Origin: Mytilus galloprovincialis
Taxonomy: Eukaryota > Mollusca > Bivalvia > Mytilida > Mytilidae
Assembly (NCBI RefSeq): GCF_965363235.1
Contig: NC_134849.1
Location: 46,694,122 to 46,758,121 of the forward strand
Reading direction: 5' to 3'
DNA: 64,000 bases
Program-made: the position numbers and the translations under genes
Shown: in pieces, positions 19,243 to 64,000 of the stretch
Layout: each line of letters begins with the position of its first letter
Position numbering within the stretch: position 1 is the first letter of the stretch
The notes under the pieces: model-generated
Databases searched by the model: none
What the model saw: the letters and a program-made list of their open reading frames with translations, nothing else
Told to the model about the DNA's origin: nothing

Positions 19243-19249
19243 TTCCATC

Positions 19250-20709: not shown

Positions 20710-23480
20710 ATCATGCTATAAGCTAGGAGAAATCAGTGCGAACGGTTTACGTTTCAGAGAACGACACTGGACAACACACAATCAAGAACAACACTAAGAG
20801 GATGTTAAAAATTAGTATGCTAATATGATAATTAATAGGAGTAATCTCATATTGCAGGCTATCATGAAAACAACCAATACACTATAGGTCATTGCTGTCT
20901 ATTGTGGACATGGTCAAGATGCCAGGTAAGAAGAGTTTTTTTAATCAATAAGTAATTCCGAAAAAAAGATTGGTTAGTTGTGGTTAGTGTTTACTTTTCT
21001 TGATCCGACTATGGATAAATTAATGTGGAATTTCTATATACTTGATGTTTATTTGCTTCGCTGATGTATTATGTCATTTTGTTATAAACTGGTATTTGTA
21101 TTTATTGTGCACTGATAAGCATAAAGTGCTTAAAGAGATGAAAAAAAAGGATGAATTGGAATTGAATATACGCGCACCATGGTCTCTTTGTATAGCTGAA
21201 TTTGTAATATATTGCCCCACATTATTTTCGTTTCTACAAATTTTAACACACGAGAGCTTTAAAGTGGATAGATGTCAACTGTTCTATATGCTCCATTTCT
21301 TTAATGAATTAATGAAATTGACCGACAAATATTCATGAGGATATTTCTGTTTGCAACGCCTAAAATAACAATTGAATCTTTTCCCAAAACGTAAAACGCA
21401 TAGATTTAACGTTTGTACAGTATGTACATATACATTAGAGCGCCTTCCCTTGCTTTTAATATGAAAACACCCTTCCATTCTATATTTAAGAATTCTGTCT
21501 GTCCGTCCATCTACTCTGAGGTGAAGAATGATGAAAAGCTAACTGGTTTGTTAATTCACGCGGTATCTATTCGTGACATAACAGCTGGAATCTTGGTCAA
21601 TACTGAAATATTAATTTAAAAGTAAAAGTTTCAAATTGAATACCCAATAATAGCTTTATCAAACTGCGGTTTAGCAACTATGTTCATATCCGCCTCTGCT
21701 TGCATAAATGTATAATGTATGACAAAGGAAAAATCTATTTAATGAAACAACACCGGAGATTGGGTTTCGATATAAAATAAAAACGAGAAATCGAACGTAT
21801 GAAAACAGACCAGCTAATTGGAACTTTAATACCGATTGTGATTAATTAGCTGATATTGTTTGTCAGTGTACTTTTAATGAGGAATTTTGGATCAGTTACA
21901 CCAAGTTTGAAAACACTGTTGAAAATATAAAAAGAGATACATACTTATGTATGTGATATGTTTAAATGAGAGACAACCCGGCAACAATCAAAATCAAAAC
22001 ACACATATAGAAAGGTCAGCATAGTAATAGTATATCGTTCATAAATAATCCATACTCTAATGAAATATGAATATACACGACAAGATAAAAAGGACTTGGA
22101 AGGTTAAAATTAAAACTCACAGGTCGAATAAAAACTGAAATCACCCATATGCAACTATTCCAGTCATAATTACGTTCGATAACTCTGCATGTTACTGGTT
22201 TAATTATTATGTAAAATTTACTGGTTACCCGATGAATGATTTAAAGAAAATTAAACAATATATTTATTTTACCTCGGTTATTTAATATCCATTCGAGGTC
22301 TTCTTTTATAAATATAAAATAATATCGTAAGGAATTTCATTTAGAATCGGACAACACTAATCTACATTGGTATTATTATTATTTATTAGGTATTGTCAAA
22401 ATTTACATCGTGATTAGGTGCCATGTTTATTTTCAATCTTTGATCACGTTGAAGTAATGACTTAATTAGTATCTCCTTAATCTAGCTATGCCCTTGGCTA
22501 TCATTATAGTGACCATAACATGTCATATTTAATTGAAATGTAAACAGTGAAATTAAATTGAATTATGTGCATGTACAAAATAAGTGTCGAACATCGTCCA
22601 CGTTTGAAAATTATTTGGTCGCCATTTTTTTTCGAAATTTTATAAAATAAACAGCATGTAACAGCTTTATCAAAAGGAACCAATGTTTGATTCCATGCTG
22701 CTTTAAGGTAAGACAATGACTGAAAACGCGAGCATCCAACGGTTATTTGATTTTCAATGTAACAATCCTACAAAATATATTTTTACCAAGTCGTCCCACG
22801 CTGTCAATGAGGTCGCCATCTTGAAAAATAATACCAGATTTTCTGAAAATGACTGATTTTCAAATCAATTTGGACGGGACATAATAAAATATTAAACTAT
22901 TGCATATACTATGTTTCAAATATTTATGAATATAGTAATAAGCACATATTCCCACAATTATTCCATCTGTTTTGGTTTAAATCGCAATTTTAGGTTTAAC
23001 ACGACAGAAAATCCAATATTTATCGGAGTTGGATGATTAACAGTGTGAACTTATCGAGGCAACAAGACAAATTTTCGAAAGCATTTGGAAGGGAGAAGAC
23101 CAAAATTTAAACTTTTTTAAAAGGCATAAATATATTTCTAAATATATGAGGAATAACTATATATTCCCACACTTTTTGTATCATGAACTTAAAGCACTTT
23201 ATTCTATCGATTCTTGAAAGCCCCTGTGCATTTCTATACAGTTTACTTGGGCTTAATACGGGTGATGTGTGACGTCATCAAAGTCACGTGATGACTGCTA
23301 TAGTTGGATATGCATATGAAAAAGTTGAAACGAATTTTGAATGATTTGACATCAGCATTTAATTCGAACAAAATATTGATAGTTAAAGGGACGACCACTG
23401 AAGAAGTTCAAAAATCCTTACTAGAACGTTAATTCATGTATGGGACGAACTGTCTTTGGGAAGACAAGTACAGTACATGT
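20710..23480. other. Intergenic stretch, mostly unrecognised
   Basis: Several small frames (21042-21338, 21413-21619, 22504-22716) show no domain or supporting splice context. A TGACGTCA octamer, identical to a cAMP-response-element core, occurs at about 23271 next to CACGTG; with no adjacent gene its meaning is unclear. Confidence 0.4.
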
Positions 23481-23672: not shown

Positions 23673-25333
23673 TTAAAATAAGATCTGGTTTTCTTGAAAT
23701 CGCTATATATGAAACGCATTATACCTCAATTTTTATTGCAAACTCATAGACAAGTACATTTTGGTTCAAAATGGTCTAAGTATATTTTCTTTCACAAAAA
23801 GTTATATTTCTGGAAATGCTGGTTACTATTGGTAAACAATGACATAGAAAGCACTATTTTGTGTCAGAGTAGGGTTTTTGATATACGTTCTCAATTTGGA
23901 GGGAGTGAAATGATGATCTGACACCCTTATCAATATTAAATATTCCGAGAGAAATGAATCACCCGAGAGTTTAATAATTGTTTATGTTGTGAACTTTCAG
24001 TATATTTTTTTTAAATCTCAGATCTCGGAAACTATTATCTGATTGAAGACCATCATTATGGTCATAAACTAGTATTCATAAGGTAAAATTGAATGAGTTT
24101 TAAAACTGTAGAGGGAAATATTAATCGTTTAAAGAGTTTATTTTCGATATAATTTCTCAATTGTGTTAAAATATTTTAAATATTCGCTCACGAGAATTTA
24201 AATTTTTAAAAAAGGATTAGACTCACTAACAAGAAATACCCGAAAACAACACATTGCAAACAGGTTTGATCTTTGAAATCTCTCAAAAATTAACAATTTA
24301 ACGCAGAACCAGATTACCTATCCAGTTTATGATTGTGGTTTTCTTGGTCAGTTCAATTTTCTACCAGTGGTTTTGTGCACTTCATTTTTTTTTTTTTTGC
24401 CGTCTTTCGTTCTTTGTCATGGTGTTGTCAATTTTCTTTCAACTGATGAGTTTTGAATGTTCTCTTGGTAAATCCGCCCTTTTCAACAGCAACTCTAATT
24501 TATATATGGGTGTCCCATTCAAAATGTTGCTCGACTTGCCATTTTGACAAACAATTATCGTTACATGTAACACAAACTCGTTAAGTCATCATTAGCGATC
24601 ATGTAATCAAATTTCAATGGCATTTTTAAACGAGGAGTGACAGGGAAAATAAGCATTCGTGTAATGGCGGAGGAGTGGGATTATGACGTGTAGTAAAACG
24701 TTTTAACCAGCAACAAACTTTACTTTTAATTAAAAGTCAATATTTGAAACAGTTAGTGAAACATTTTTAGCGGTTTAGAATTAATTGCCAACATCCAAAG
24801 CTCATTGTCAGTAATTGGGTTCTGACAGTGTTTCTTACATCACTCTACTAATTGATCTATTTTGAAACCACACTTACTCTAGAAACTTTGTTAAAATTTC
24901 ACAGAATGATATATTTGCCTCGAAGTCACGTTGTGGATTTTGAAGTATTTATGATATAAACAATATTTCTAATTATAAGGTAAGAATTTATTACGGAATT
25001 TGTTCTCTTTGTGAAAAAAAATATATGACCAGAAGGACATATGTGTTACAATGTAACTGAAATCTTGGCCTATATTCATTCAAATTTGCTTTTTCTAATT
25101 ATATGGGTTATTCTTTTTTGCCTTTGGAATTTCTTTTCAAATCAATGACCTTTTTTTCATCGAAAAAAGGAATCATGAACATTTGTTTGGTCTTAGGTTG
25201 ACATAACTGCAAAATTCATCCTGGAAAGTGTCAAATACATGAAAAATTATTTCGACAATTAGACTTTATAATAATTTAATCCGGAAATCTACCTATAAAT
25301 TGTCTTTGGACTTGTTTTACATTATGCATTATA

Positions 25334-27571
25334 GGTGTAATACCACCATTGATTTTTCCCTATTAGTCTTTGTTAAATTTGTACTTTTAAAAAAAATGTA
25401 CAGAATTTACCTTTATTTCAACCAAAGAAATACTTTGCATGAATAAAGTTTAATCCTTTCCAGTGCTACAGTGAAAATTTCACACTACATTTCATTGCAT
25501 ATAAGAAAGTAACCTGCACCGGAAGTAAACAATCACATTTTTACCAGGTTATTTACTGGTTACCTGCTTTGGCAACTATGTAACCTTAACTTTCCAAAAT
25601 ATTTTATAAGACCATCAAATAAAAAAAGAATGATGCTTTCAGACACCCAACATACATGTTTATGACTCAGAAAAATTTAAGTGCATTGAAATGCAGGGTT
25701 AATTTTCTACAACTGTCAAATTCAAGGGAATATTTTTTTAGACCTACTTTCGTATGCAACCGGATGTGGCGTATCATGATTTGGTGGTATTACACCTAAA
25801 GAACACCTAAATGTCAAATAAACTTAATGTAATTTTTTTCCCTCCAATTGCAAGTTATTTCAAGCATAACTGCCAAGTTTTGTCTCAGTCAGATCTATAG
25901 TTTCAGAGAAAATCACTATAATGTAAGGCCATATCCTACGGCAATTTCAGTCTAATTTCTTCGACAAATCCAAATTTCAGTTTATCATTATAAAATGCAG
26001 TGTTGACTAATATCTGATCAAAAACTCATGATCTATGCATTCAAACAATTAAATAGAATACAAAAGACAACTTTTAGATGATAAACAATTTTATTGCACC
26101 TTTTAGAGTTCATTTGAAGGTCTGTTTTGGTCTGTTTTGGTCCATTTTTCCTCCTTCCTTCCTTTTTCATCAAAACTTGATATCTTTTGTCTAAAAAATA
26201 AAACAAATGTGATTATTTCCCCACAAAAATGATATAAATGTAATGTTAAATCAATAATTAAAGTGTTTTAGTTGAAAGAACTGTCTCTATAAATGTTAAC
26301 AGTCTACACGGAAGTTTCTAGAAGCCCTTATGTGTAACTCGAGTTTTTAGTCTGTTCACCTAGTGTGACAAATAACGGTTCCCTTTCAGTCAACCATTTA
26401 TTGTTACTGGTATCAAAGTCTTTTTATTTACTCATAACAGTATATTTCTAATAGATTTACACAAAGTGTCCACTTTCTTGTATTTTACATTAGAAAATGG
26501 GGAGAAAGAGTAATAAAAAATACCTCAAAATGTTTTTAAAAAGGGTTATGTCCCTTGGAATGCTGGTACAAAAAAATTATTGGTAAGAATTATAAAGTTT
26601 AAGTATGTGAGACTGGATTCTGATGTGTATAAATCCAGGGCAAATAAGTGTTTAGATGATTTATTGTCTGTGCAAAATGTAGATGGCACAATGGCAAATT
26701 GTAAACTTTTGCGGCCAAAAAAAGCACAAAAAACATGATGATAGTTGATACTTACTTTAATGCTGAAGTGTCATCTGCAGACCAATTCACATATAAGATT
26801 TTTCAACAGAATGCTCTTCAGAACATGTGAACACTGAAATAAAAAATTCACATGTTGTATAAACAAAACTGTTAGGGTATTATTTAAAATTTAAAACAGT
26901 AAACTAAATACAGCTTTGTCTGTCCACCCATTTGACTTAGAAAACACCCGTAAACCCCCATTTCAAGGCAATTTTACCTCAAACGTGCTTTCTGTGTCTC
27001 AATCCATTCCGAATAGTCCATGTTTACAATGTATGAACTGGTTTATTAATAACTTTTAAAAATGAAAGTACAATAAGGTCACGAGTGCACATGTAGTTTC
27101 CCTAAATAGGTGTAATACCACCATTGATTTTTCCCTATTAGTCTTTGTTAAATTTGTACTTTTAAAAAAAATGTACAGAATTTACCTTTATTTCAACCAA
27201 AGAAATACTTTGCATGAATAAAGTTTAATCCTTTCCAGTGCTACAGTGAAAATTTCACACTACATTTCATTGCATATAAGAAAGTAACCTGCACCGGAAG
27301 TAAACAATCACATTTTTACCAGGTTATTTACTGGTTACCTGCTTTGGCAACTATGTAACCTTAACTTTCCAAAATATTTTATAAGACCATCAAATAAAAA
27401 AAGAATGATGCTTTCAGACACCCAACATACATGTTTATGACTCAGAAAAATTTAAGTGCATTGAAATGCAGGGTTAATTTTCTACAACTGTCAAATTCAA
27501 GGGAATATTTTTTTAGACCTACTTTCGTATGCAACCGGATGTGGCGTATCATGATTTGGTGGTATTACACC
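25334..27571. mobile_element. 2.2 kb element with identical 463 bp direct terminal repeats
   Basis: Terminal direct repeats 25334-25796 and 27109-27571 show no difference in my reading. Each begins GGTGTAATACCACC and ends GGTGGTATTACACC, its exact inverse. The whole unit is flanked by TTATA on both sides (25329-25333 and 27572-27576), consistent with a 5 bp target duplication of the composite, not of each repeat separately. The layout is LTR-like, but canonical TG/CA termini, a primer-binding site and a polypurine tract were not seen. The 1.3 kb interior has only a small, broken element-derived coding remnant near 26497-26738. Identical ends imply a young, probably non-autonomous insertion; class is undecided (LTR kin or DNA element with unusual ends). 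Confidence 0.75.
26497..26738 (+). pseudogene. Element-derived coding remnant
   Basis: A short stretch inside the 25334-27571 element with protein-like codons: a basic start (MGRKSNKK) and motifs KKGYVPWNAG and LLRPK. Starts of this type (basic MGRKR-like, then KGxxPWNxG) occur in some invertebrate transposon-associated proteins, as far as I recall. It is broken and far too short for a transposase. Family not determined. Confidence 0.4.
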
Positions 27572-27576
27572 TTATA

Positions 27577-37132: not shown

Positions 37133-38188
37133 ATGGTGGAGTCAGTAACTGATGTCATGGAGAACAGTACGTGTCATACATGGATTCCAGCGGAATTGCA
37201 GGATAGAAATGTCACATTGGAACTTCTCAATGAATTGCATGTTAAACGCAATATCGGTGGAATTATTATGCTCCTCTGCTTTTCGGTAGTTGGGTTGATT
37301 GGAAACACGCACGTGTTATATGTATATTCCCGTCAATATAAGCAATCTAACTATAGGATATATGTGCTATTTCTAGCAATGTTGGATGTGATCAACTGTA
37401 CGGTTGTGGCTCCTCTGGTGGTAGTGTATCTCTTTCATCCGCTGATGTATCCGTCTAATATATTTTGTAAAGTTTTTAGAACAATATTATATTATATGGC
37501 GATTGCAAGTACTTTATCACTGGTATCGATAGCAATAGAAAGATTCCGAAAAATTAGATTTCCATTTAAAGAAAAGTTATCAGAAAGTGCAGTGATAAAA
37601 CTTTGTATTGGGAGCTTAGTTGTTGCCGCCATTTTATCATGGCCTGCTCCGATATTGTGGGGACTAAGTACAGTTGAAACTGGTGTTCCAGGATTTGAAG
37701 GGAAACGATGCTTCACTGATGATAGTTTTAAAGACTCAAAAATTAATTTACAAGCAATGTACAATGCTTGTTTAATATTGTTTTATTTCTTAGTTTCTGG
37801 TACATTGATTGTTATTTATATTTATATTGGAATAAATATTCACAAACAGTACAAGTTTCGGGGTGAGCAGATCGCGTGTCAGACCCGCTTAAATGGAAGA
37901 AAAGATTCAGTGAATACTAATGGAAATAGTGCACGGAATGCAACATATACTTTATGTGCAGTGACTTTTGCGTATGTTGGTAGTGCGCTGCCTCACCATC
38001 TGCTTGCGCTTCTGATTTTCCTTATTCCCAACTTTGACTGCTCAATGAGTTTATTCGGTTCACGTTGGTATTATACATTTGTATGGTCATACTTTTTCAA
38101 TAGTGTCATAAACCCGTTTATATACGGGATCCGTGACCGGAAGTTCAGATTCGCGGTAAAGAATATTTATCGAGTTTGTGGAAAGTAA
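37133..38188 (+). CDS. Class A (rhodopsin-like) G-protein-coupled receptor, paralogue 2
   Basis: A 351-residue plasma-membrane receptor with the same layout as the one at 5086. The N-terminus has NST and NVT sequons and shares the CHTWI and NVTLxLLNE blocks. Helix 1 has GN near 57-58, helix 2 LAMLD, and helix 3 starts near the disulfide cysteine in IFCKVFRT. The DRY box is ERF, ECL2 has KRCF, helix 6 has SALPHH instead of CWxP, and helix 7 ends NPFIY followed by the conserved GIRDRKFRFAVK helix 8. The third intracellular loop and C-terminus are the most divergent parts. A polypyrimidine tract and TTTTCAG acceptor ends 8 bases before the ATG (exon start 37125), the same 5' UTR intron position as paralogue 1. 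An AATAAA lies 58 bases after the stop. Ligand unknown. Confidence 0.93.
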   Translation: MVESVTDVMENSTCHTWIPAELQDRNVTLELLNELHVKRNIGGIIMLLCFSVVGLIGNTHVLYVYSRQYKQSNYRIYVLFLAMLDVINCTVVAPLVVVYLFHPLMYPSNIFCKVFRTILYYMAIASTLSLVSIAIERFRKIRFPFKEKLSESAVIKLCIGSLVVAAILSWPAPILWGLSTVETGVPGFEGKRCFTDDSFKDSKINLQAMYNACLILFYFLVSGTLIVIYIYIGINIHKQYKFRGEQIACQTRLNGRKDSVNTNGNSARNATYTLCAVTFAYVGSALPHHLLALLIFLIPNFDCSMSLFGSRWYYTFVWSYFFNSVINPFIYGIRDRKFRFAVKNIYRVCGK

Positions 38189-39096: not shown

Positions 39097-41314
39097 ATTT
39101 GTACGACTTTGCCCCCCGCAGAGCTATAGAAAAACAGTACATTAACGGGTGTTACACGGACTCTTTTTAGATGATACACGGACTCTTTTTAGTTGTTACA
39201 CGGACACTTTTTATGAATAGAATCACTCGTGCATGATCAGTGAGTTCATGGGCACTTTAACTTTCAATTAGATTTGAACTTTTTGGTTCACCGACTTATT
39301 TCCTGTCTTTTTATTGAACAAAATATTAACGTTAGCATCAATATCTATTTTCAAACATTTCCATTAAAATACTATTCATATCAGTACACTAAGGGATTAG
39401 ACATTTAACTTCAAAGGGGGGGGGGGGGTATGGTTTTTCCCTAAAAAAAGATATTTTGATCACAAATTTTATCACAAAAAAATTATTATGGTCAAGCAGA
39501 TGACAAATTAATGTTTTGCATGATTCCTTGATTTCCGAATACCGTATATAGTGCTAATTTAAACAAAAACATTTGGGTGATGGCGTTGAAAGTAAATAGT
39601 TAATTAATGTACGATAGCCGAGGACCTTGACCTGACTACAAGTGCAGAAAAAACTATTCGGCTGGTTGTTACCGGCCTCTTTCCTTTGTTACTTTTGATT
39701 TTTATCTGACTTGTACGACGTTTCAAGAAAGTTATAATACATTTTGCAAGACTAAACATTTGAGATATTTAGATAGCCATAAAGCAGTAAATGTAAGTTG
39801 TAGTATAAACATTTTTCATTTCCCTTCAACCGAGATTTTTTTTAAAGAATAAAAAAAACAGGAATCTATTTAGGTAATTATTTGATAAAAAAAAGAGCCA
39901 TTTAAAGGAAAAGATGAATGTTGTACACATTTTAGACTTTTAAAAGGCAACTGTCTTCGTAAAAAAGTAATATACGTTTGATCTTTATGGATGACACGGA
40001 AAGCGGGGAAGAAGGGGGGGGGGGCTAATTTATTTTAAGATAAACAGGCTGTAATCTTTATTTCTGATGAAAAATGCAGGATATGCCATTCCATCCCCCC
40101 ATCCCCCCTTAAAAAAATACGTTTGTTGCCAAATTCATGAATTTAATATTCAGTGGTTGGGGGGGGGGGGGTCCCGGGGGTTGGAACAGCCTTGTTTTGG
40201 ATGATCAATGCATTTAAATGGGGACATAAAGTTGGACCCCCTGTTTTGTCCTGGATTTGGACCTGGATCCGCCACTGAAATAAATTCGATAACAATATAA
40301 ATGTATCAAAAGAATGAATTTCCTACTTCATTAGTAAATGAAATGTTTATGAAAAAATGAATTTTGTCTTAATATTAAATATATTCAGGCATATACTCAA
40401 TTTTTTTTTAAATTCATGCTCGTCTCTAGATCTGCAAGTGTTGATCGGGAATAAACACGTGTTACTATATGATCCAATCGCAGCTTACCGCCCAAAATTG
40501 ATGACATAAGTTGAATGATTTTCTTTTAGATTTGCTGCTTATTTGGACGTGTATTACATGAACACTTTTTGTTTATAGGATCAATCGTGCATTGGTGAGT
40601 TGATAGGGATTTTATCTTTTGATAAGATTTGATTTTTATTTATTTATTTCCTGTCTTAATTTTATTGAAATATACACGTCAGTATCATCATTGCTTTACT
40701 TTGAGCATTGTCCAAAATACTATTCATATCCATATATTGAAGAAAACGTTTATTGACCGAATATTTTGCTTCATAAAGGGGGCGGTATGTTCTTTTTTTT
40801 TTAGTACATTAATTAACTATTTACTTTCAACGCCATCACCCAAATGTTTTTGTTTAAATTAGCACTGTATACGGTATTCGGAAATCAAGGAATCATGCAA
40901 AACATTAATTTGTCATCTGCTTGACCATAATAATTTTTTTGTGATAAAATTTGTGATCAAAATATCTTTTTTTAGGGAAAAACCATACCCCCCCCTTTGA
41001 AGTTAAATGTCTAATCCCTTAGTGTACTGATATGAATAGTATTTTAATGGAAATGTTTGAAAATAGATATTGATGCTAACGTTAATATTTTGTTCAATAA
41101 AAAGACAGGAAATAAGTCGGTGAACCAAAAAGTTCAAATCTAATTGAAAGTTAAAGTGCCCATGAACTCACTGATCATGCACGAGTGATTCTATTCATAA
41201 AAAGTGTCCGTGTAACAACTAAAAAGAGTCCGTGTATCATCTAAAAAGAGTCCGTGTAACACCCGTTAATGTACTGTTTTTCTATAGCTCTGCGGGGGGC
41301 AAAGTCGTACAAAT
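39097..41314. mobile_element. 2.2 kb element with ~515 bp terminal inverted repeats
   Basis: The left arm (39097-39613) and right arm (40804-41314) are reverse complements at about 99% by eye. They start ATTTGTACGACTTTGCCCCC and include a TTACACGGACTCTTTTTAG word repeated twice. Differences are mainly poly-G length. The 1.19 kb interior has no convincing ORF. It contains a GGATCC-type short repeat (about 40150-40280) and, at about 40540-40800, a diverged copy of part of the left arm in the same orientation. Flanks read ATTGTA and ATTGGA, an imperfect possible target duplication. A foldback or long-TIR non-autonomous DNA transposon is likely, recent given the arm identity. Confidence 0.85.
40540..40800 (+). 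repeat. Diverged internal copy of the inverted-repeat arm
   Basis: Shares ordered words with 39190-39430: 'AACACTTTTT', 'ATCAATCGTGCAT', 'GTGAGTT', TTATTTCCTGTCTTAATTTTA, 'CCAAAATACTATTCATATC' and 'CTTCATAAAGGGGG'. Identity is far lower than between the two outer arms. This suggests an older arm or an insertion of a related element before the outer arms were homogenised. Confidence 0.65.
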
Positions 41315-47270: not shown

Positions 47271-50200
47271 CTAGCAATATATAAAATGACACTATATGTA
47301 AACGTTTATGTTGAAACAATCATTAATAGATATAGGAAGATGTGGTGTGAGTGCCAATGAGACAACTCTCCATACAAATAACAATTTAAAAAGTAAACCA
47401 TTATAGGTTAAAGTACGGCCTTTAACACGGAGCCTTGGCTCACACCGAACAACAAGCTATAAAGGGCCCCAAAATTACTAGTGTAAAACCATTCAAACGG
47501 GAAAACCAACGGTCTAATCTATATAAACAAAACGAGAAACGAGAAACACGTATATATTACATAAACAAACGACAACTACTGTACATCAGATTCTAAATGA
47601 TTAAAACAAGTATGAGGACAAACTTAAACATAACAAACAAAATCCGGTATAAAAACACAACAAGCGGTGACCTATACTTGTTTACTTCTATGCCATATTG
47701 TCTCATTTGCTATCATACCATATCTTCTTAATTTTATAAGCAACAGGTATCAATGTAATATACATAAAACTTTAAGTGAACAACAAAAACACCACCACAA
47801 ACCAGGGACGAATTAAGTCTTCTGAACTGTAAGTTGTTCGCTTATCACCAACCACAGTGGCATGCGTCGTCACTGCTAAAGACAAAGGATGCCGATTCTT
47901 GGTTTCAAATGTTTAGGTTTGAGCGTTCCTAATGAAGATAAATCTAGAAAAGCGCTTCGGATGCACACACTTTTTTAGGAGTATTATTAACATTTTCTAG
48001 CATTAGATCGAAGCTACTGCTGATAGACTTGTAAGTAACCGAGGGTATTATCAACTCGATAGGCATTGCTTCGACACTGAAATTATTTGTGACGTACTTT
48101 TCTAAAATCCCTGTTGAAAAATCAAGATTTAATTAAGAAATTGAGGTCCCAACTCCCTCAAGCAAATATGACCTTAGACTTTGACTATTACTTTAGGTTC
48201 CCTGTGATCACAAAGCTCCCAACGTTTTCATGTATGTATACATCATCCGTTTTAAGTGTTTAGGCTTGCGGGTTGACTATGTGAAACGCTTTGGGCACAC
48301 GATATTTATATAATGTTTTTTTCTTAAACAATTTGGCTGATTATCTAATATAGGTTTATATAATATTAAATCAACACCCTTACAACCTAATCTAAAACAA
48401 ACATTCCTTTCAAATAGGATTTACGAAACAAGATGTTGACAAAGAAAATTAAAAATGTCGAAAACATATTCTAAAAGTAACGTCTACTTTAGCGCTATCA
48501 TTATCTCACACCAAATTAAATATTTGCTTCGAAATAACTTGTTTGTTATGTTAGAAAAAGCTAATATATTACGAATACTGCATATTGATTAAATTGTGCC
48601 ATTTATAAAACAAAATACATGTTTAAAATTTTCTTTAACTGTCTCCTCGGTAGCCTAAATAAAGCCAGTATAAATGACAAATATAACTCCTAAAAATTGA
48701 ACCTTGAAAAAAATGTTAACATTCAATCTAGTTTTATTGACCTCACAACTAAGCGAACACGTACCTTAATTTTAAGATAAGAACTAGGATGACGACACCA
48801 ATAATTGCTAAGGTACCTAGCACTCCTCCGACAATTAAACCTAAAAATAAAACAAAAATGAGTTCATTGTCTAACTGCAGAGTATTTTAACCGCTCCTTT
48901 TGAAAACATAAAATTTGCCCTTAACCACACAGAATGTATAGTAAATGATCGTAAATGATCGTATAACTATAAAACAAAATATTGCATGAATGTTCTGTCA
49001 ATTTTATTTTAACGAAAAACGTAGTTTCAAATATCTTATAATGAAAAAAATACAGCGACTCTAAGTACGAGATAATTCATGTGTCATCAAGGACGTCTCC
49101 GTTTCTCCGCCATGGCTTGAAATAAAAAGACAAACAGTACAGAAGACACAACATAGAAAACTAAAGACTAAGCAACACGAACCCCACCAAAAACTTGGGA
49201 TGATCTCAGGTGCTCCGGAAGGGTAAGCAGATCCTGCTCCACATCTAAGTTTGAAGATGTTTCTTAGTAAATGTTGATTTTACATGTTGTTTTTACTCTT
49301 TTGCTTAAGGATTATAATACACATACTAGGAACAAAACAATATAAAAAGAGAGGATATGCTCTATCAAGGATCAGTGTAACGTTATAGATTTTTCAACAT
49401 TTATTTCTTGTCATTAAAATTCAGTAATACACAATTTTAAGCAATCAATAATGCCAGATGACAATGACGCTGTCAACAACCCAGATTTTAATCGTTGCAA
49501 CGATGCTATATAAAGTTTAGTAACAGTCTGAAAAGCCGAACGTATGGTAAAAAGCGCTCATCACCGTAAACTCACATTCAACACAATTATACATTTTGCT
49601 TATTAAAAAAAATGAGTTCGAATATTGAAGGCAAATCCTAAGGTTTTTTTATGTCAAAGACTGCTTTTTGTTGTTACATTTTTGTCGTTTTATAGAACTC
49701 ACAGTTGGTAATGGAAATAGTGGCACAGAGTTTGCTTTACCTTCATAACTTACTATAACACTATTCATTGACTATTCTGAAACCGGAACTTTTAGTACAT
49801 CCAATTGGCAGCATTTTAGTGTAAAGTTTTATTAAAAACATACCTTTTTAACGTTATAATTTTCCTGGTAAAATTACTATACACTTTTTCTAATTTTCGA
49901 AAAAAACATGAGATGTATGATTTTTTTGTAAATTTCTCAGCTTTTCTTATCAGTTTCTTTTACGGACCAAGTCGTATAACTCAATTTTACTATATAACTA
50001 GAGCAAGACATAAACTTTTGAAGCAAGGTACATCTGTAACTAAAGTTTCAAATGGTTTCTAGAATACATCGGATGCAAGATTATATAGAAACACGGTCAA
50101 CATCGTACTTTTATAAAACATTGTATGACGCTTACTATTATGGAATATATTGTTACTTTGATGTTGTAATATTTACCGATATTAGAAGTTGCGTGGTGTT

Positions 50201-53200
50201 TGGGAATATCTCTGATGTGCCTTTTGTCATCCTGCTTTGTTACTATATTGGTTGTACTTTGAAGCATAGGCGGCGAGTTTATAATCGTTGAAAATGACCT
50301 TTTGCCTAAAAACATGAAATGTAGAAAATGAACACTTCATAATAAAAATAAATTTAGCGTTTATATTTTCTTGTGAATAACCGCCACGTCGAATAGGCTC
50401 TACATATACTTAACTATAGTCTACACTGAAAACAAAACTAAAATAATCAGGGTTTGTATAACATTCTAAATACTAATAGTGTCTTCGGTTTTGAACCTGA
50501 CAACACAATCAAGCTTTATGAAACATTATCGTGATTGTTATCCATCATGTATAACTCAAATTTATTTAGCTATTAACATCACTTTGCCAAAGGGCATGCT
50601 CTTTGGTTGCAGCTATCTAAAATTTCAGATAGACTTTAAAGCTGAAACGATTTTACAGAGAGTTCTCGTATTTTTCAAATTAGCCTTTCTCGTGGAAGCT
50701 TGTTTGAATCTGTAGCGGGATATTGACGATCCACTACTTTCCTATGTCAATCATATGGTTATATTTATAAATTAACTGTTTTCAAAATTTTGAATCGTTG
50801 AAAAACTAAGGCATTTCTACCTCAGGCATAGATTACCTTAGCTGTATTTGGCATGACTTTTAGGAATTTTGGTACTTACTGCTCTTTAACTTCGTACTTT
50901 ATTTGGCCTTTTTATTTTCTTTGGATTCGAGCGTCACTGATGAGTCTTTTGTAGACGAAACGCGCGTCTGGCGAATATACAAAAATATAGTCTTGGTATC
51001 TATGATGAGTTTATTCAAATCATCATTGAAGCGTAATATAAGTCAACTCTGTAAAAGATTCCGTTTTTAAGAATAGAGGTGGAAGACACTAAATGGATAT
51101 TTAAACTAAAAAGATGTTAATAGCATGATCATCTGTTAGCTTTTTCAAATAAACAATTTGTACACAAATATAAAATAATTTATAACAAGAATGTGTCCCC
51201 AGTACACGGATGCCCCACTCGCACTATCATTTTCTATGTTAAGTGGACCGTGAAATTGGGGTCAGAACTCTAATTGACATTAAAATTAGAAAGATCATAT
51301 AATAAGGAACATATATACTAAGTTTCAAGTTGATTGGACTTCAACTTCATCAAAAACTACCTCGACCAAAAACTTTAACCTGAAGCGGGACGAACGAACG
51401 GACGAACGAACGAACGAACGGACGGACGGACGGACGAACGAACGAACGAACGAACGAACGGAGCCACAGACCAGAAAACATAATGCCCCTCTACTATCGT
51501 AGGTGGGGCATAAAAATTGTTGTCTGTTGTTATATGTACCAACCTGTAGTTTTTTTAGCGTTTATTGTTCTTTCGTTAGAGCCATGATAATTTGTTGATT
51601 TATAACTATATATTCCTGGGCACAGTTTAGCAGAATCGGCAACTGTTTTAGTGTTATCTGTTGTCATATTATAAGGTGATGCTGTTAAAAATATCGACAA
51701 AACAGTTTATATTTATTTATATATTTATATACTTTTTATAAAATATAGCACTAAAACAGAATTAACTACAACATATCTTCACCAATCAATATTGACTATT
51801 CTTAAGAATGAAAAAATTATTGAATGGCCAATCATTGAACTGATGAGTAGTTCAGAAGATAATACCAAAGAATGTATTTTTAACTAAAAAGTATTGTGAT
51901 AGCCTTCTTGAGATTTGTGCAAACACATTTAACATAAATGGTAAATTGCAAAACTTGAAATTATAATACCAATGTGGCTTTTAATTATCAATATTCTACA
52001 AGGTAACAGACTTGATGGTCGAACTTCTTTTGATATTTTATCATTGGAGTCCGATTATATTGCTACTCTGCGAAAACGAAATGAATTTATTAGTAAATGC
52101 AACAGGCCTCTATTAACTATTCTGAATGCATTTGAATGATATATGCTTACAAAAAACACAAAAGAAACCATCCGCCTTTTTACTGCAAGGAATATTCGTT
52201 TGAAATGAAGGAACTTCACCAGTATGATAACAGCGGAATGATTCACATTCTGTAACAGATTCGTTAGTTGCAATTCCATCTTCAATGAAAAAAAGGAAAA
52301 ATATTTTTTTCATAAAGATATAATTCGTAAAAAGTAAAACAAAAACTGTTATATTTTCTACGAGATAGTTCAGTATAAGATACATACTATTTCATGCTAT
52401 TTTATAGAACTTCATCTTATTACATGTAATCGCAGAAGGAGGTGAGATAAAACACACCGGTGAAATAGAGAAGTATTGAGTAGGCTCATTAACCTTACCT
52501 TAGTATATTCAATCCCATTCGAAAATTTACTGTTCTTAATTATTGGAGGCGTACTATATTCCGAAAATATTTCCTCTCATTGCAACAACTTCTGCTGGAA
52601 TAATTAAATTCGAATTGATTGATTGATTGATTGCTTGTTAGTTGCTTGATTAACAAGAGGCTATTACTTCATGCAAATTCATCTAAATTCCATTTATTGC
52701 AAAAATAATGTATATTATTTAAAAAAAATAAAAGTACGTGTTTTTGCAACTTCATTAATGAACAATTCAAAGAAATCATTTGAAACAAATTTACAATGCT
52801 GTTTTTGTGCAAATAATACCATACATAGTAATGTAACGGGGTGTCCCCAATGTCGCTTAAATAATAAATGTCCAACTAAAATGTAATTTCCTGAGTTTTT
52901 AAATACAAATTGCTTCAATTATATCCATTATCAATTTTAATCATTCTATAAATGTTATTTTAAAGCAATCCCTATTACTGTACCGAAAATTGACCCTACA
53001 TGGCTATATTAAAGTATGGAATTTTATAAATTCACGCAAAGATGGCACCAAACTTGTTCAACAGTCAATAAGCACCCAAAGCCATTACGATGCTTACAAA
53101 ATGCGAAGACAACGCATGAAAGTAAACTTTCGTATTGAGAGTACGTAGCGTTCAAACTGGGTCTTGAGACCTCATGGTGGCATTGCATATTCGATCAAAC

Positions 53201-59200: not shown

Positions 59201-62200
59201 GTTACCATACATCTAGATTGAATTAGAATTTGAGACAAAAACCTCACCTTGTCTCGAATTTGTTCTTTTTCGTCATACACCGGACGCCAAAGAAGCTCAT
59301 GGAGATAACTTTCATCCGTAATTGTTTTTCCCAAAACCCATATGCAACCTGAAGTGTGTCTCCGTGTACTTATTTAGTAACTTTTCATCAACGCTTTTTT
59401 TATTATATTCATAAGATTGAAAGCAATTATTTAGATGTCGGTTTTTTTTTTTTGGCTGTTTGAGTCGTTCATTTACATATACTTCACATTCATTTTTGAC
59501 ACACAGGTGTATATGTGTTATTTGTAACGATGCTATCGTGTTAGGTTAAAACTAAATTTTATAACAGTTTTGTTCTTGGTTAAAAGATTTGATAAGTTAA
59601 TTAAGTTTGAAAATAAAACAATAAGTAGCAAATATTAAAAAGATTTTGTTGCATAGACAAAAACCAATAATTCATACAACATACCTTTATATACCCAGTA
59701 ACGGTTATTTGAATCCAGAGAGTCAATGCATTCATGAGTGTTAACTGCCTTTTCAAGATGTGCTACATTTTCTGTTATGCACGCACACTTTTTTCCCTAT
59801 GAATATAGGATACAGATATATTTTCAATTATATGTTGTGCTGCTTAAAAAAGTAATTTATTTACAACTTAACAATGCTCGACATATTTTTTTTAACAACT
59901 TGACCTTTGGACAATAAATCATGCCATATATTACTTGTTCGGAAAAAAACGAGTGGATTACCAAAACTCTGAACCAAGTCACTTTATCCACACCAGTGTA
60001 TAAGTGACCTCAGAGTCAACTGAGTTTTAAAGCAAACTAAATATGGTTGTAGTTATTTTTCTGTTTTTAGAGGACTTATTTGTCTGTCCTATACTGTTTT
60101 TATATACAAATTATCCAATCTACACCTTCTTCAATGCCATCATTATCATGAATATGTCTTTCCTTTCTAGAATTCAATTTATCTCATATTTTCTTTTTTA
60201 GATGTTTATCTTTTGGGATCCATCATTGATGACTGATTTCTAATTTTCAGTATTTCTATGGTAATTACCATTGTTCGTTTTAAAAATATTTAACATCTCA
60301 AAAATTGTTGTTATTGTACAATTAGAAAAATATCTCTAACGCATTAAATATAATAATTTGAAATAAAGGTGACATGTGAAACACATACATGTATCAATAC
60401 GAATGCAACAAATCAAATAAAATGAATCAAAAAGATATTTCGGAGGTCATCATAGAACATAATGACAGAAGAAGGTTAATACCAAAATTTCTAGTTTCTT
60501 GACAAAAAATTACCATTAAAGAAAGCAATTACAGCTGACTAAATTCATGACATGAGACACCTGAAAATGGTGGACGATTTACTTATTTTATCAGTGTTAA
60601 GTTTTCCCCATTTTTTCTCAGTTAGAGAACTATCTATGATCCAGACTGAAGTTGTGAATTCGTTGATACTCGTACAACATCCGGACAAAATAAAAATCTA
60701 CCATAAAGTGTAAAAGGTTTCTGAATGTAGTCTCTAATATATAAAAAAAAAGAAGTTTGTGAATTCTTTCTTTATTTTTAGGCAAAATTCATGTCAGACT
60801 TAAGTTTTTATGATATTGCTACATGTACTGGCATTATCTATAAAGTCAATTCAATTTTAAGTCGTTTATGTAATTAAAAAGAATTCACAGCGTCTCCCTA
60901 ACGTAGTTGTACTGACTCATAAATAAACATCTTTTTGTGTTGGGATGTATAAGTACCCGGCCACGTCTACTTGTATTTTTGTCCATCTGATGAGTTAAGC
61001 CTTTTTCAACTGATTTTTATCGTTCGTACTTATGATGTACTTTTATACCACTGTCACAGGTTAGGGGGAGGTTTGGGATCCAGCTAACATGTTTAACCCC
61101 GCCACATTATTTATGTATGTGCCTGTCCCAAGTCAGGAGCCTGTAATTCAGTGGTTGTCGTTTGTTTATGTGTTACATATATGTTTTTCGTTCATTTTTT
61201 TTTATATAAATAAGGCCGTTAGTTTTCTCGTTTGAATTGTTTTACATTGTCTTATCGGGGCCTTTTATGGCTGACTATGCGGTATGGGCTTCGCGCGTTG
61301 TTGAATGCCGGACGGTGACCTCTAGTTGTTAATGTCTGTGTCATTTTGGTCTCTTGTGGACAGTTGTCTCATTGGCAATCATACCACATCTTCTTTTTTA
61401 TATCACCATATATACCAGGATTTAAATTATGTATGTACGCCCGACGCGCGTTTCATTACCAGTGACGCTTGAATAATTTTTTTAAAAGCCAAATAAAGTA
61501 CAAAGTTGAAGAGCATTGAGAACCAAAATTCCTAAAATACAGCAAGGATTTTTTTATATATATATCAATATCATTTTCGTAATATCTGTATTTATGAGCT
61601 CTTACTTTTACAAATTGTTACTTCGAAGGAGACTTGTCTCATGGACACTCATATCACAGGTTTTTTAATATCAATTCACAATCAAATCAAAACATGACAA
61701 CCCAACACGTGCATTGAGTTAAACATCCAAAGGCAGACAAATCATATACGTGAGTTGTCGAGGGGACAATTTAGGAATTTTACTGTAAATGTCATCTATA
61801 AGATACCACATATTATTTGTGAATTACTTACTATGTGTGCTAAAAACTTAATTCTTACATGCTGCTTCCTACAGACTTCAAAACATATTAGCACTGAATG
61901 TGCGGTAGCAACATATGGCCTCCCTAAAATTTCGAAGCAACCTATGAAAATATTAAAAAAGAATAAGCCATTTGTAACTATACACGCTAAATTTGTATCA
62001 AGCACTTGTTACCAATGTGTTCGGTGGTATGACGTAAATACTACACGGAAGCTCTTGAGGATGTAGGTGAAATTTTAAAAAGTATAGAATTTAAAATTGA
62101 TCCTATAAGTCAGAAGAGCATTAGTTAAGAAACAAATTCGGCTAAAAAAAATTAAAGATTATGAAGTACCTTTTTTTCATATATATATTTTTAAATAACG

Positions 62201-63601
62201 TGTAAATGCTGACTCAAACTTTTACCATATTTTAAATTGCATTAGAATTATTTGGGTTTTAAAATTTCTAGAGTTTGCTTGAATTTTGGTAAATGACCTT
62301 CTATGGGTTATAATAGTCTTATATACAAAGACAAATGGGTGTTGCGGGGTAGAATATTGTACCCTGTATCATAGGAAAAGAAAAAAAAAACATCTGACAA
62401 AAATTCCTTAACCTCACCTAAGTACATCCTTAAGAATGAAATCATACATTTAACTACATTCAAGGCCGTTTGGTCCACAGAAAGACAAATAGTTAATAAT
62501 TATGCCATACCACATCTTAGTTTAAAGCATGCTCTTAAAAGTTAAAAGTCCAAGCTATATATTTGCTTCCTAAATTACATAAACAGCTGTTCAAATTCTG
62601 TTTCATTGCTTGTAGTAAGTGTTCTACTTCGAATATGTCTGTGCTGTTAACTAATTCCTTTACTTTATAAAAGAGTTTTTTATTAATTTTGGTACTTTAG
62701 CCTTAGAAAATAATGGAAATAACGTTTTTAGTGTCAACAACTGTATTGATGGTTCGGATAAATTACGTACTCTTGATAGTCCGTTCAAATCAGTTAAGAT
62801 TTTAAGATTTAAACACTTCACTACATCACATTCTACATGTAGGTATAGATTTCATCTGACTTACGTGTTTAAGTTCCCTGTTTTGTCCTTCATAAGGAAA
62901 TTATTTTTCACACTCGTAACCTCTATTGCACGTAAAATATATAGATGTTGTTCAATAGACATGGCACATGAACTTTTTTTTTTTTGGTTCACGCAAAAAT
63001 ATGTATTCCATGAAATTTGCAATCTGATGAAATATAAAATACAAAAACTGTTCTTCAGACTAATTATTTAGTTTAACGATTAACGCGAAGTGAAAGTAAC
63101 GACGATCCGAAATTGTTTTATTATCGCCGCCATCTTTTTTCCATAAGTTTCGAAAAAAGTTCGGTCAACGTCGTCTATTGAAAAATAAACAACGTCAAGA
63201 TTAATAACCGAAAGTCCCCTCAACCAATCATATTTACGTATTTCCTACTATGCAAATCATAAGAATTATTTTATGTGTAAGGGGTATTAAAAGGTCAATC
63301 TTGATAGTATGTTTAAGAATCATTTAAAACAAAGGGGATTCACAAGTCAATTTGATGATAAGCTTCCATTTAAATAAGCTATTGGCACATGCATTTGAAT
63401 ATTTACCTATCCTGGATATCCAGGTGGAAATTATTTTATACTTCCCAGTCCAGTATGTTGATCCGTCACTACCAATATGACCTTTTAATCTATTGCAATT
63501 CAATCCATCTTCATTTGTCGCCAGTCTGCCTCCATGACGATAACAAAACACCTGTGCATCAAACCATGTTTCCTGGTTCGGGAAATAGTGAACAAAATAC
63601 G
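46817..63601 (-). CDS. Lectin-like single-pass membrane receptor with tyrosine-rich tail (5' partial, 11 exons)
   Basis: Exons in transcript order: 63601-63407, 61941-61859, 59796-59685, 59348-59248, 57895-57793, 56466-56344, 52279-52151, 51681-51544, 50305-50177, 48840-48765 and 47270-46817. All ten junctions keep one frame (about 546 residues plus stop). The order is a C-type-lectin-like segment (WFDAQVFC, GGRLA), WSC-like cysteine-rich exons (HSVLICFEVC, GKKCACI), three more Cys-rich exons, an S/T/N-rich stalk, a 24-residue membrane helix with GGVLG, a basic stop-transfer, and a ~150-residue cytoplasmic tail with six tyrosines including SEYDRL (ITIM-like) and DVYAVV. The intron after 57793 uses a GC donor. 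The 5' exons (signal peptide) lie beyond 64000. A surface recognition or adhesion receptor, perhaps in immunity, is inferred; ligand and name unknown. Confidence 0.88.
47330..47600 (-). repeat. Repeat family B copy inside the last intron
   Basis: Almost the same text as 11108-11400 ('ATAGGAAGATGTGGTGTGAG', 'ACGGAGCCTTGGCTCACACC', 'ACCAACGGTCTAATCTATAT'). It begins only about 60 bases upstream of the last exon's acceptor. A weak family A end in the opposite sense follows at about 47670-47735. Confidence 0.75.
47923..47964 (+). ncRNA. Diverged hammerhead ribozyme-like motif
   Basis: Stem I GCGTTC/GGATGC (with G-U pairs), core CTAATGA, stem II AGAT/ATCT, GAAA at 47947-47950, stem III AAG-CG-CTT and C17 at 47958. 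The architecture is complete, but the core differs from consensus CTGATGA at one normally invariant base, so cleavage is probably lost. Confidence 0.6.
48261..48300 (+). ncRNA. Strongly decayed hammerhead-like motif
   Basis: TGCGGGTTGACTATG followed by TGAAACGCTTTGGGCACAC aligns with the 47923 motif and its flanks (GAAA, then CGCTT, then GGxxxCAC), but stem II is missing. Significant mainly through its spacing of one unit from the first motif. Confidence 0.35.
48765..48840 (-). CDS. Lectin-like receptor, exon J (transmembrane helix)
   Basis: 76 bases, acceptor TTTTTAG and donor GTACGT, entry phase 1 and exit phase 2. Encodes LIVGGVLGTLAIIGVVILVL then ILKL and a basic R-R across the junction: one membrane helix with glycine-rich packing face and positive stop-transfer. 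Confidence 0.9.
49105..49245 (-). repeat. Repeat family G, reverse fragment in an intron
   Basis: Reverse complement of the first half of the 20470-20703 copy: 'AGTCTTTAGTTTTCTATGTT', 'AGTTTTTGGTGGGGTTCGTG' and 'GGAGCAGGATCTGCTTACCC' on the minus strand. Non-coding. Confidence 0.7.
50177..50305 (-). CDS. Lectin-like receptor, exon I (juxtamembrane stalk)
   Basis: 129 bases, acceptor GTTTTTAG and donor GTAAAT, phases 1 and 1. Encodes KRSFSTIINSPPMLQSTTNI then a basic stretch DDKRHIRDIPKHH. No cysteine, polar, consistent with a flexible stalk. Confidence 0.83.
50810..51010 (+). mobile_element. Bivalve ribozyme-bearing repeat
   Basis: Contains 'AAGGCATTTCTACCTCAGGC', 'AGATTACCTTAGCTGTATTT', 'GGAATTTTGGTACTTACTGC', the hammerhead at 50932-50973 and then 'AAAATATAGTCTTGGTATC'. 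A diverged relative lies on the minus strand at about 61405-61545. I know this as a common bivalve dispersed sequence; the ribozyme suggests a retrozyme or Penelope-like origin. Confidence 0.7.
50932..50973 (+). ncRNA. Hammerhead ribozyme (type I, minimal stem III)
   Basis: All core elements are present. Stem I CGTCA (50932-50936) pairs with TGGCG (50969-50973, one G-U); core CTGATGA (50937-50943); stem II GTCT/AGAC with loop TTTGT (50944-50956); GAAA (50957-50960); stem III ACG/CGT with a two-base CG loop (50960-50967); cleavage site after GTC (50966-50968). A three-bp stem III is typical of retrozyme and Penelope-associated hammerheads, which usually cleave as dimers. It lies in the intron between exons H and I of the lectin-like gene, antisense to it. 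Confidence 0.85.
51187..51515 (-). repeat. Family C repeat with (ACGA/ACGG)n microsatellite
   Basis: Reverse complement of the 12771-13232 family: starts 'GTGTCCCCAGTACACGGATG', ends CTACTATCGTAGGTGGGGCA. The ACGA/ACGG tetranucleotide tract spans about 51390-51462. It ends only about 30 bases downstream (on the minus strand) of exon H's donor. Confidence 0.85.
51544..51681 (-). CDS. Lectin-like receptor, exon H (stalk with cysteine)
   Basis: 138 bases, acceptor TTTAACAG and donor GTTGGT, phases 1 and 1. Encodes SPYNMTTDNTKTVADSAKLC then PGIYSYKS and NERTINAKKTT, with sequon NMT and one cysteine. Confidence 0.83.
52151..52279 (-). CDS. Lectin-like receptor, exon G (Cys-rich)
   Basis: 129 bases, acceptor CATTGAAG and donor GTAAGC, phases 1 and 1. 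Encodes GIATNESVTECESFRCYHTG then NIPCSKKADGFFCVF, with sequon NES and four cysteines. Confidence 0.85.
52280..53240. other. Intron sequence between exons F and G, left part
   Basis: Intronic DNA of the minus-strand gene. A (GATT)n microsatellite lies at about 52614-52640. Open frames here on both strands (52669-52918) lack any motif. Confidence 0.5.
53260..53715 (-). pseudogene. PIF/Harbinger-type transposase fragment
   Basis: On the minus strand, RLIKPFSIRK, then EHVEENAYSILAHKFQIFM, fits the C-terminal part of Harbinger nucleases (family pattern: LxRPY...RLSRARxxVENxFGILxxRFRxF). Just upstream, in another frame, PGDDVPD resembles the GD(D/E)AF word that holds a catalytic Asp. Only this C-terminal portion is recognisable. 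A fossil DNA transposon inside the intron between exons F and G. Confidence 0.55.
54838..54935 (+). repeat. Repeat family A, 3' end
   Basis: 'TACGGTGACCTATAGTTGTT', 'GTGTCATTTTG' and 'GTCTCATTGGCAATCATACC' match the end of the 60965 copy. Confidence 0.75.
55357..55533. repeat. 177-base hairpin element in an intron
   Basis: Arms 55357-55434 and 55456-55533 (78 bases each) pair with about nine mismatches around a 21-base loop. The outer part (GCTTGAAATCCTTTATTATC) is perfect. No ORF. The size and shape suit a MITE of foldback type or a long inverted-repeat small-RNA precursor. On the transcript of the host gene it would sit in the intron between exons F and G. Confidence 0.8.
56344..56466 (-). 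CDS. Lectin-like receptor, exon F (Cys-rich)
   Basis: 123 bases, acceptor GTCAAG and donor GTAAGT, phases 1 and 1. Encodes EKCRYHTTPDYLWDICKTLP then DEHRN and FWTEVTC. Ends in a cysteine just before the junction, as exons E and G nearly do, suggesting a repeated module. Confidence 0.85.
56700..57175 (+). repeat. Family F repeat, copy 2
   Basis: Contains GTGAGAGGGTTAGCGCTATA, 'CCAGGTTTAATCCACCATTT', 'CCTGTACCAAATCAGGAATA' and 'GGACTTTCCGAATTGATTTT', colinear with 44770-45260. In the intron between exons E and F. Confidence 0.7.
57793..57895 (-). CDS. Lectin-like receptor, exon E (Cys-rich, GC donor)
   Basis: 103 bases, acceptor TTACTAAG, phases 0 and 1. Encodes NTTLNGPGNCAFVDCRYKPE followed by IGTDYCEAKRTPFC, with N-glycosylation sequon NTT. 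The donor is TGTG|GCAAGT, a GC-AG intron; no GT donor keeps the frame. Confidence 0.83.
58401..58892. repeat. ~30-base minisatellite in an intron
   Basis: About sixteen units around AGCAGTATCCTGAATTATCA followed by TCATTAGTAGC, with length variants. It lies in the intron between exons D and E of the lectin-like gene. In-frame stops in most units show it is not coding. Confidence 0.85.
59248..59348 (-). CDS. Lectin-like receptor, exon D
   Basis: 101 bases, acceptor CACTTCAG and donor GTGAGG, entry phase 1 and exit phase 0. Encodes CIWVLGKTITDESYLHELLW and a charged end (EKEQIRDK). No family resemblance of its own. Confidence 0.83.
59685..59796 (-). CDS. Lectin-like receptor, exon C
   Basis: 112 bases, acceptor TTCATAG and donor GTATGT, phases 0 and 1. 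Encodes GKKCACITENVAHLEKAVNT followed by HECIDS and RYWVYK. The CxC after a CxxxC exon completes the WSC-like cysteine pattern. Confidence 0.85.
59860..60960. other. Intron sequence between exons B and C, nothing recognised
   Basis: AT-rich intronic DNA with no supported exon or repeat before the family A copy at 60965. Confidence 0.45.
60965..61405 (+). repeat. Repeat family A, best-preserved copy
   Basis: A nearly full-length copy: 'CATCTGATGAGTTAAGCC', 'GGTTAGGGGGAGGTTTGGGA', 'AACCCCGCCACATTATTTAT', CCTGTCCCAAGTCAGGAGCC, 'GCCGTTAGTTTTCTCGTTTG' and 'ATACCACATCTTCTTTTTTA'. In the intron between exons B and C, antisense to the gene. Confidence 0.8.
61405..61545 (-). mobile_element. Diverged ribozyme-bearing repeat, minus strand
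   Basis: On the minus strand 'GGAATTTTGGTTCTCAATGC', 'TTCAACTTTGTACTTTATTT', 'AAGCGTCACTGG' and GAAACGCGCGTC follow the order of the 50810-51010 repeat. It directly abuts the family A copy. Confidence 0.65.
61438..61467 (-). ncRNA. Decayed hammerhead ribozyme, minus strand
   Basis: On the minus strand CGTCA, then CTGGTAA, then GAAACGCGCGTC and GGGCG. Stem I (one mismatch) and the stem III/cleavage segment match the intact motif at 50932, while stem II and part of the core are absent. Sense to the lectin-like gene, within its intron between exons B and C. Confidence 0.5.
61859..61941 (-). CDS. Lectin-like receptor, exon B (WSC-like start)
   Basis: 83 bases, acceptor TTCATAG and donor GTAAGA, entry phase 1 and exit phase 0. 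Encodes CFEILGRPYVATAHSVLICF then EVCRKQH. The spaced C..SV..C...C pattern is WSC-like. It is the only candidate between its neighbours that restores the reading frame, which supports it strongly. Confidence 0.85.
62059..62429. mobile_element. TTAA-type MITE (family E), copy 2
   Basis: Ends GGATGTAGGTGAAATTTTA and 'CACCTAAGTACATCC' with TTGA at the left and TTAA at the right (62430-62433), so the target duplication has decayed on one side. Body colinear with 45713-46102. In the intron between exons A and B. Confidence 0.75.
62440..63400. other. Intron sequence between exons A and B, nothing recognised
   Basis: AT-rich intronic DNA; the open frame 62865-63071 has no motif and is on the strand opposite to the gene. 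Confidence 0.45.
63407..63601 (-). CDS. Lectin-like receptor, exon A (C-type-lectin-like)
   Basis: 195 bases, acceptor TTTTTCAG and donor GTAAAT, phases 1 and 1. Encodes YFVHYFPNQETWFDAQVFC and GGRLATNEDG followed by STYWTGKY and STWISRI. The W..A..FC...GG.LA and WTG words are those of the first half of a C-type lectin fold. The usual second half with its Ca-site W.D is not obvious, so carbohydrate binding is uncertain. Confidence 0.88.
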
Positions 63602-64000
63602 CTGAAAAATAAGTATTGATATATAAATAAAATAGAGTGCTTCTTATGTTCACCATATGCATTGTAGCAATATTCACTAATACTGTTAAAACTTATTGAA
63701 CCGACTTGGTTGTAATACGCTTTTGATTGCATTTGGTTATAATCGAAAACTGATTTTTTTTATGCTCCTCCACTAAACATATGGCATTTGTGGGGAACAC
63801 TGGTTAATAACTAGTCAAAATATTGTAAACATTTCTTGGTAGAGTATAAACTCTTTATATTGTAAATTACCTTGTGCATGTTGTGAGCTAACACATAAAT
63901 ATCTAGCTCTTTTTGTCTCCTAAAATTCAGTGTTCATAACTCTCATCATCCTGATTATGCATAAGATATTATGCTAAAGTTAAGCCAAATCACATTCATA
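63602..64000. other. Right edge, probably intron upstream of exon A
   Basis: No further minus-strand exon is visible. Exon A begins with a phase 1 acceptor, so at least one upstream coding exon must lie beyond the window. Confidence 0.5.

Follow-up and report, generated by a model that had tools for sequence, protein, structure and literature searches.

The Locus

We describe a hammerhead ribozyme locus in a 64,000-nucleotide stretch of the Mytilus galloprovincialis genome (contig NC_134849.1), the whole of which is referred to as the window. A complete type I hammerhead motif occupies positions 50932 to 50973 of the plus strand, where direct reading confirmed, letter for letter, the original prediction that all parts are present and in order. 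These are the stem I 5′ strand CGTCA (50932 to 50936), the catalytic core CTGATGA (50937 to 50943), a 4-bp stem II formed by GTCT and AGAC (50944 to 50947 and 50953 to 50956) around the loop TTTGT, the core GAAA (50957 to 50960), the final A of which is also the first base of stem III, the octamer ACGCGCGT of stem III (50960 to 50967; ACG CG CGT, giving 2 to 3 bp as a hairpin), the C of the GTC triplet (50968), and the stem I 3′ strand TGGCG (50969 to 50973). Stem I has 5 bp, one of which is a U-G pair. The sequence features of type I membership (RF00163) were found, namely, the core CUGANGA...GAA(A)...NUH, three stems, and an open stem I. By the known hammerhead rule, cleavage is predicted between 50968 and 50969, after C50968. 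No minus-strand ribozyme was found at the site by the Rfam scan or the descriptor search.

The motif lies between two likely exons on the opposite strand. A partial Lectin_C match was found within 63324 to 63689 (minus strand; E value, 0.006; 17.7 bits, under the Pfam cutoff of 22.6), and this weak match, together with splice-like signals, places a lectin-like exon with splice-like borders at about 63407 to 63601 (minus strand). A tail-like exon that runs to a stop was placed by splice-like signals at about 47270 to 46817 (minus strand). A simple motif scan for the second half of the C-type lectin domain found none, with one weak motif at 63401. The ribozyme had been described as intronic and as antisense to the lectin-like gene. 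The opposite strand and the position between likely exons both stand; the gene itself is putative, its Lectin_C match being below the cutoff, and the joining of the two exons into one gene follows from splice-like signals only. Read from these signals, the ribozyme is probably antisense and within an intron of a putative C-type-lectin-like gene. In an antisense position, the pre-mRNA of the putative gene would carry only the complement of the ribozyme, and regulation of the host gene through its own transcript was rejected, as the strand is wrong.

Forty open reading frame (ORF) stretches were searched against Pfam. Of the 47 listed ORFs in the window with at least 80 amino acids, 31 were covered, as were 12 of the 39 that overlap 49500 to 52500 and have at least 35 amino acids. 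No reverse transcriptase or GIY-YIG match was found among these 40 stretches, a search that short fragments could escape, and the ORFs tested near the site matched no Pfam family at its cutoff. Matches to Topo_C_assoc, DUF805, Kei1, BCD1, CD1375-like, and SRP_TPR_like were under the curated cutoffs and were set aside as noise. The GC content is 33.6% at 50740 to 51010 versus 32.2% for the window.

Several other features were noted in the window. Two related long ORFs of rhodopsin-type GPCRs lie at 5041 to 6165 (plus strand; 7tm_1; E value, 6.2e-33) and 37133 to 38188 (plus strand; E value, 3.1e-29). A near-perfect inverted repeat (39097 to 39612 and 40804 to 41314) surrounds about 1.2 kb, with 100% identity over the outer 327 nucleotides and 99% over the inner 192 nucleotides; the whole (39097 to 41314) looks like a young foldback-type element, and no ORF of at least 80 amino acids is listed inside it. 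An exact 467-nucleotide direct repeat (25331 to 25797 and 27106 to 27572) has mutually inverted ends (AGGTGTAATACCA and TGGTATTACACCT), and its two identical units may be copies of a MITE-like element.

Covariance Match and Chance Expectation

The Rfam Hammerhead_1 model aligned over its full length (model positions 1 to 45) at 50931 to 50974 with 28.2 bits. The E value was 0.00029 when 50000 to 52000 (2,001 bases) was searched and 0.0094 when the whole window was searched against 4,227 Rfam families. The gathering threshold of RF00163 is 34 bits, so the curated cutoff was not reached and a default Rfam scan of the window lists nothing. The covariance-model search proposed alongside the original prediction yielded a significant E value and a score short of the gathering value; given the end-to-end alignment and this E value, the claim of a motif stands, and a curated Rfam call does not. 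The consensus stem III of Hammerhead_1 is the same ACGcgCGU that is found at the site. Rfam matches to MIR2646, MIR161, and RsaF were far under their gathering scores and were regarded as noise.

A strict descriptor required the core, NUH, and a minimum of 5 bp in stem I, 3 bp in stem II, and 2 bp in stem III. Searched on both strands of the window, it matched only once, at the 50932 site. The control was first-order Markov sequence with the dinucleotide frequencies of the window, in which one strict match occurred in 37.12 Mb, or about 0.0017 per 64 kb, a rough figure that derives from a single event. A lenient descriptor again matched the 50932 site alone, with 0.16 matches expected per window.

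Related Copies in the Window

The region from 50600 to 51180 was used as an nhmmer query against the window, and two relatives besides the query itself were above the inclusion line. One (61402 to 61540, minus strand; E value, 3.7e-15) is homologous to 50855 to 51009, so that the ribozyme-bearing repeat spans at least 50855 to 51010 (plus strand). It shares upstream sequence with the 50932 copy back to 50855, and by eye the likeness may reach about 50836 (CCTTAGCTGTATTT versus CCTTGCTGTATTT), a part that MAFFT aligned differently. Its ribozyme is broken: CTGATGA is cut to CTGGT, and stem II is gone through a 12-base gap. The other (19246 to 19348, plus strand; E value, 6.6e-5) shares only the ribozyme and the downstream part with the 50932 copy. 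Its core is also broken, reading CTGTTGA with AAAA for GAAA, and its stem III keeps two of the three possible pairs. Rfam found no hammerhead in either broken copy up to an E value of 10. The ribozyme is intact in one of the three window copies, and the broken copies lie about 10 and 32 kb from the 50932 site. A tail of 35 to 65 bases follows the hammerhead, with TGGTATnTnTGnTGA in all three.

Because two homologous copies are present in the window, the hammerhead site belongs to a repeat family, and the original description of its surroundings as a repeat is borne out to that extent; the abundance in bivalves that this description also gave draws on the count published for one mussel. Weaker nhmmer self-matches at 18625 to 18539 (E value, 1.4) and 20737 to 20827 (E value, 4.1) were left uncounted as noise. 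No tandem copy of 50600 to 51180 was found in the window (the descriptor matched once in 64 kb), nor were direct repeats of the flanks found with the same query or a second intact ribozyme for a dimer route with the descriptor. Pattern searches with the ribozyme and with the sequence of the repeat upstream had 0 matches in prokaryotic genome contigs and viral contigs, and a 171-bp repeat had no match in phages or plasmids; both results are uninformative on bivalves. Twelve short strings from the motif gave no printed copy in the literature searched, where main texts rarely print sequences.

Ahead of the 19246 copy, an A box (TGGTCGAGTGG) and a B box (GGTTCGAAAAT) lie 42 bases apart. A-box starts at 19045 and 19054 pair with the same B box, and these are the sole A and B pairs in a scan of the window. 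In random sequence, 10 pairs occurred in 14.08 Mb, which corresponds to an expectation of 0.045 for 64 kb. No such pair was found near the 50932 copy in the search for Pol III boxes. ARAGORN called no tRNA in the window, and no Rfam tRNA match was found in 18950 to 19400, so the tRNA-like head is suggestive only. The stretch from 19054 to 19348 (plus strand) has the layout of a SINE-like relic, in which tRNA-type A and B boxes are followed by a body and then by the broken hammerhead and tail; the body is 81% like an inverted neighboring copy at 18842 to 18732 (minus strand). Schistosome Sm-alpha elements provide a precedent for a tRNA-like head combined with a hammerhead (PMC2770079).

Predicted Folding

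In the monomer, the hammerhead fold has a predicted energy of −5.0 kcal/mol versus −12.4 kcal/mol for the best fold, a gap of 7.4 kcal/mol. Pairing probabilities for stem I were 0.82 to 0.96 in the 47-nucleotide motif, 0.70 to 0.81 in 101 nucleotides, and 0.21 to 0.25 in 172 nucleotides. Those for stem II were 0.004 to 0.005, 0.035, and 0.09, respectively, and always below 10%, and that of the stem III hairpin was near 0 in the ensemble. The letters of the 3-bp stem III with a 2-nucleotide loop, as originally described, are present; as a normal hairpin it does not hold, a monomer forming at most 2 bp with a 4-nucleotide loop. These energies, which ignore magnesium and tertiary contacts, argue for a ribozyme that is a poor monomer, without proving inactivity.

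Because ACGCGCGT is identical to its reverse complement, two copies could pair over 8 bp to give a double hammerhead, as known dimeric hammerheads do. The best two-strand fold has a predicted energy of −33.2 kcal/mol, and the dimer hammerhead one of −28.1 kcal/mol. The gap per ribozyme is 2.6 kcal/mol in the dimer versus 7.4 kcal/mol in the monomer, and the dimer hammerhead is still not the best fold. The palindromic stem III suggests that cleavage would be best when two copies in one transcript share an 8-bp stem III. Published observations bear on this preference from both sides. In agreement with it, hammerheads with a weak helix III are described as working better as dimers (PMC7761336, PMC6155905). 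Against it, most invertebrate retrozyme hammerheads are reported to cleave as monomers (PMC7229834, PMC7761336), and a cloned mussel repeat is reported to do so at about 0.1 per minute (PMC7229834).

The 279-nucleotide region from 50732 to 51010 was compared with 200 shuffles, of which 164 folded as well, so that it is no better than shuffled sequence (z, +0.85). The 156-nucleotide region from 50855 to 51010 folds worse (z, +2.59), with all 200 shuffles as good. A predicted fold pairs 50819 to 50851 (CTCAGGCATAGATTACC...) imperfectly with the tail at 50982 to 51010 (...GGTATCTATGATGAG), with the ribozyme enclosed; the whole region with this pairing is no more stable than shuffles.

Comparison with Known Elements

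About 5,000 type I hammerhead copies in two families are reported from Mytilus galloprovincialis (Cervera and de la Pena 2020, PMC7229834). These families are without most of the classical loop contacts, and the hammerheads usually lie inside 350- to 390-bp repeats, with abundant circular RNA (PMC7229834). The present locus resembles metazoan non-LTR retrozymes in its type I hammerhead and may do so in lying within a low-GC, apparently non-coding repeat, although its GC content is close to that of the window. It is unlike them in that only one ribozyme is present and tandem units of about 150 to 450 bp are lacking. The weak stem III further distinguishes it from most invertebrate retrozyme hammerheads, for which monomer cleavage is reported, and the predicted folding of its region, no better than shuffles over 279 nucleotides and worse over 156, would differ from that of the self-paired circles described for retrozymes. 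In view of the lack of tandem units, we do not classify the locus itself as a retrozyme, although it may descend from one.

Minimal hammerheads of Penelope-like elements were reportedly described by Cervera and de la Pena in 2014 and by Lunse et al. in 2017. The site resembles these in its weak stem III, its dispersed occurrence, and a plausible dimer mode, and differs in that no Penelope protein was found in the tested ORFs and stem III is not absent. Penelope-like elements encode a Penelope reverse transcriptase, with or without a GIY-YIG endonuclease, and have tandem minimal hammerheads in the pseudo-LTR with stem III minimal or absent; at the site, stem III has 2 to 3 bp and a single hammerhead was found. 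Schistosome Sm-alpha SINE-like elements also carry hammerheads (PMC2770079, PMC6155905). The broken 19246 copy is like Sm-alpha in sitting behind tRNA-like A and B boxes, whereas the 50932 copy, with no such boxes nearby, is unlike these elements and their tRNA-derived Pol III head. The site most likely belongs to a known kind, as an ordinary member, and the closest known kind is that of the retrozyme hammerheads of Mytilus galloprovincialis.

Interpretation

Judged by its sequence, the site is a real ribozyme motif by descent, with self-cleavage at 50968/50969 predicted. We consider it probable that this true hammerhead lies in a solitary insertion, now decaying, that stems from a small non-coding retroelement, either a retrozyme or a Penelope-associated element. 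This reading draws on the end-to-end covariance match, the rarity of the motif by chance, the two broken homologues, the palindromic stem III, and the dimer energies, as well as on the lack of a reverse transcriptase or GIY-YIG match and the roughly 5,000 published Mytilus galloprovincialis hammerheads. Against it are the distance of the related copies (about 10 and 32 kb), their broken state, the Rfam score under the cutoff, the folding of the region in comparison with shuffles, and the fact that a 350- to 390-bp unit cannot be delimited at the locus.

By the cycle described in the literature, tandem transcripts of the source element would have been cleaved by the ribozyme after GTC, and the resulting units ligated to circles and reverse transcribed. 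Cleavage would have been best when two copies per transcript shared the 8-bp stem III. The single ribozyme at this locus has no tandem partner; for it to act, a plus-strand transcript would have to cross the site, and cleavage would then probably be slow. Here the ribozyme is probably inert.

A chance resemblance with no ribozyme could appeal to the Rfam score under the gathering threshold and to a monomer for which the hammerhead is not the favored fold. We rejected it as virtually negligible, since about 0.0017 strict matches are expected per window, the E value across all Rfam families is 0.0094, and the homologous copies keep blocks of the same core. The insertion could instead derive from an autonomous Penelope-like element, as what is left of its pseudo-LTR, with minimal hammerheads acting as dimers, rather than from a retrozyme. 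Hammerheads of Penelope-like elements are published as having a minimal helix III or none, and such elements coexist with retrozymes in mussels (PMC7229834, PMC7761336). We regard this origin as unlikely because the ribozyme keeps a stem III of 2 to 3 bp and a 5-bp stem I, and the 40 ORF stretches, a partial set in which short fragments may be missed, gave no reverse transcriptase or GIY-YIG match.

Use by the host, for example, through an active ribozyme that cuts an antisense transcript across the receptor gene intron, would fit a core that is intact while both other window copies are broken, and hammerheads have been published from human gene introns and the 3′ untranslated region of rodent Clec2 genes (PMC6155905). 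The strand is wrong for the gene's own transcript, however, the copy is single and its monomer folds poorly, and a younger insertion would explain the intact core equally well, which makes such a role very unlikely.

Alongside the preferred reading of a lone retroelement fragment, the three copies allow a more speculative one, in which the hammerhead and tail would be a portable 3′ module of different small elements, with a non-tRNA 5′ part in the 50932 and 61402 copies and a tRNA-like, SINE-type head in the 19246 copy. We put this forward as a long shot.

Significance

The locus adds one more mapped animal-type hammerhead, missed at the default Rfam threshold, and comes with a testable prediction, that the 50932 ribozyme would be poor as a monomer and better as a dimer. 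Its probable intronic antisense position indicates that a ribozyme can sit in a gene and yet outside the gene's own transcript. The ribozyme and tail shared with the tRNA-headed relic are the only part that might be new on element mobilization. If the module reading is true, the ribozyme and tail would be a signal for one reverse transcriptase that mobilizes several non-autonomous families.
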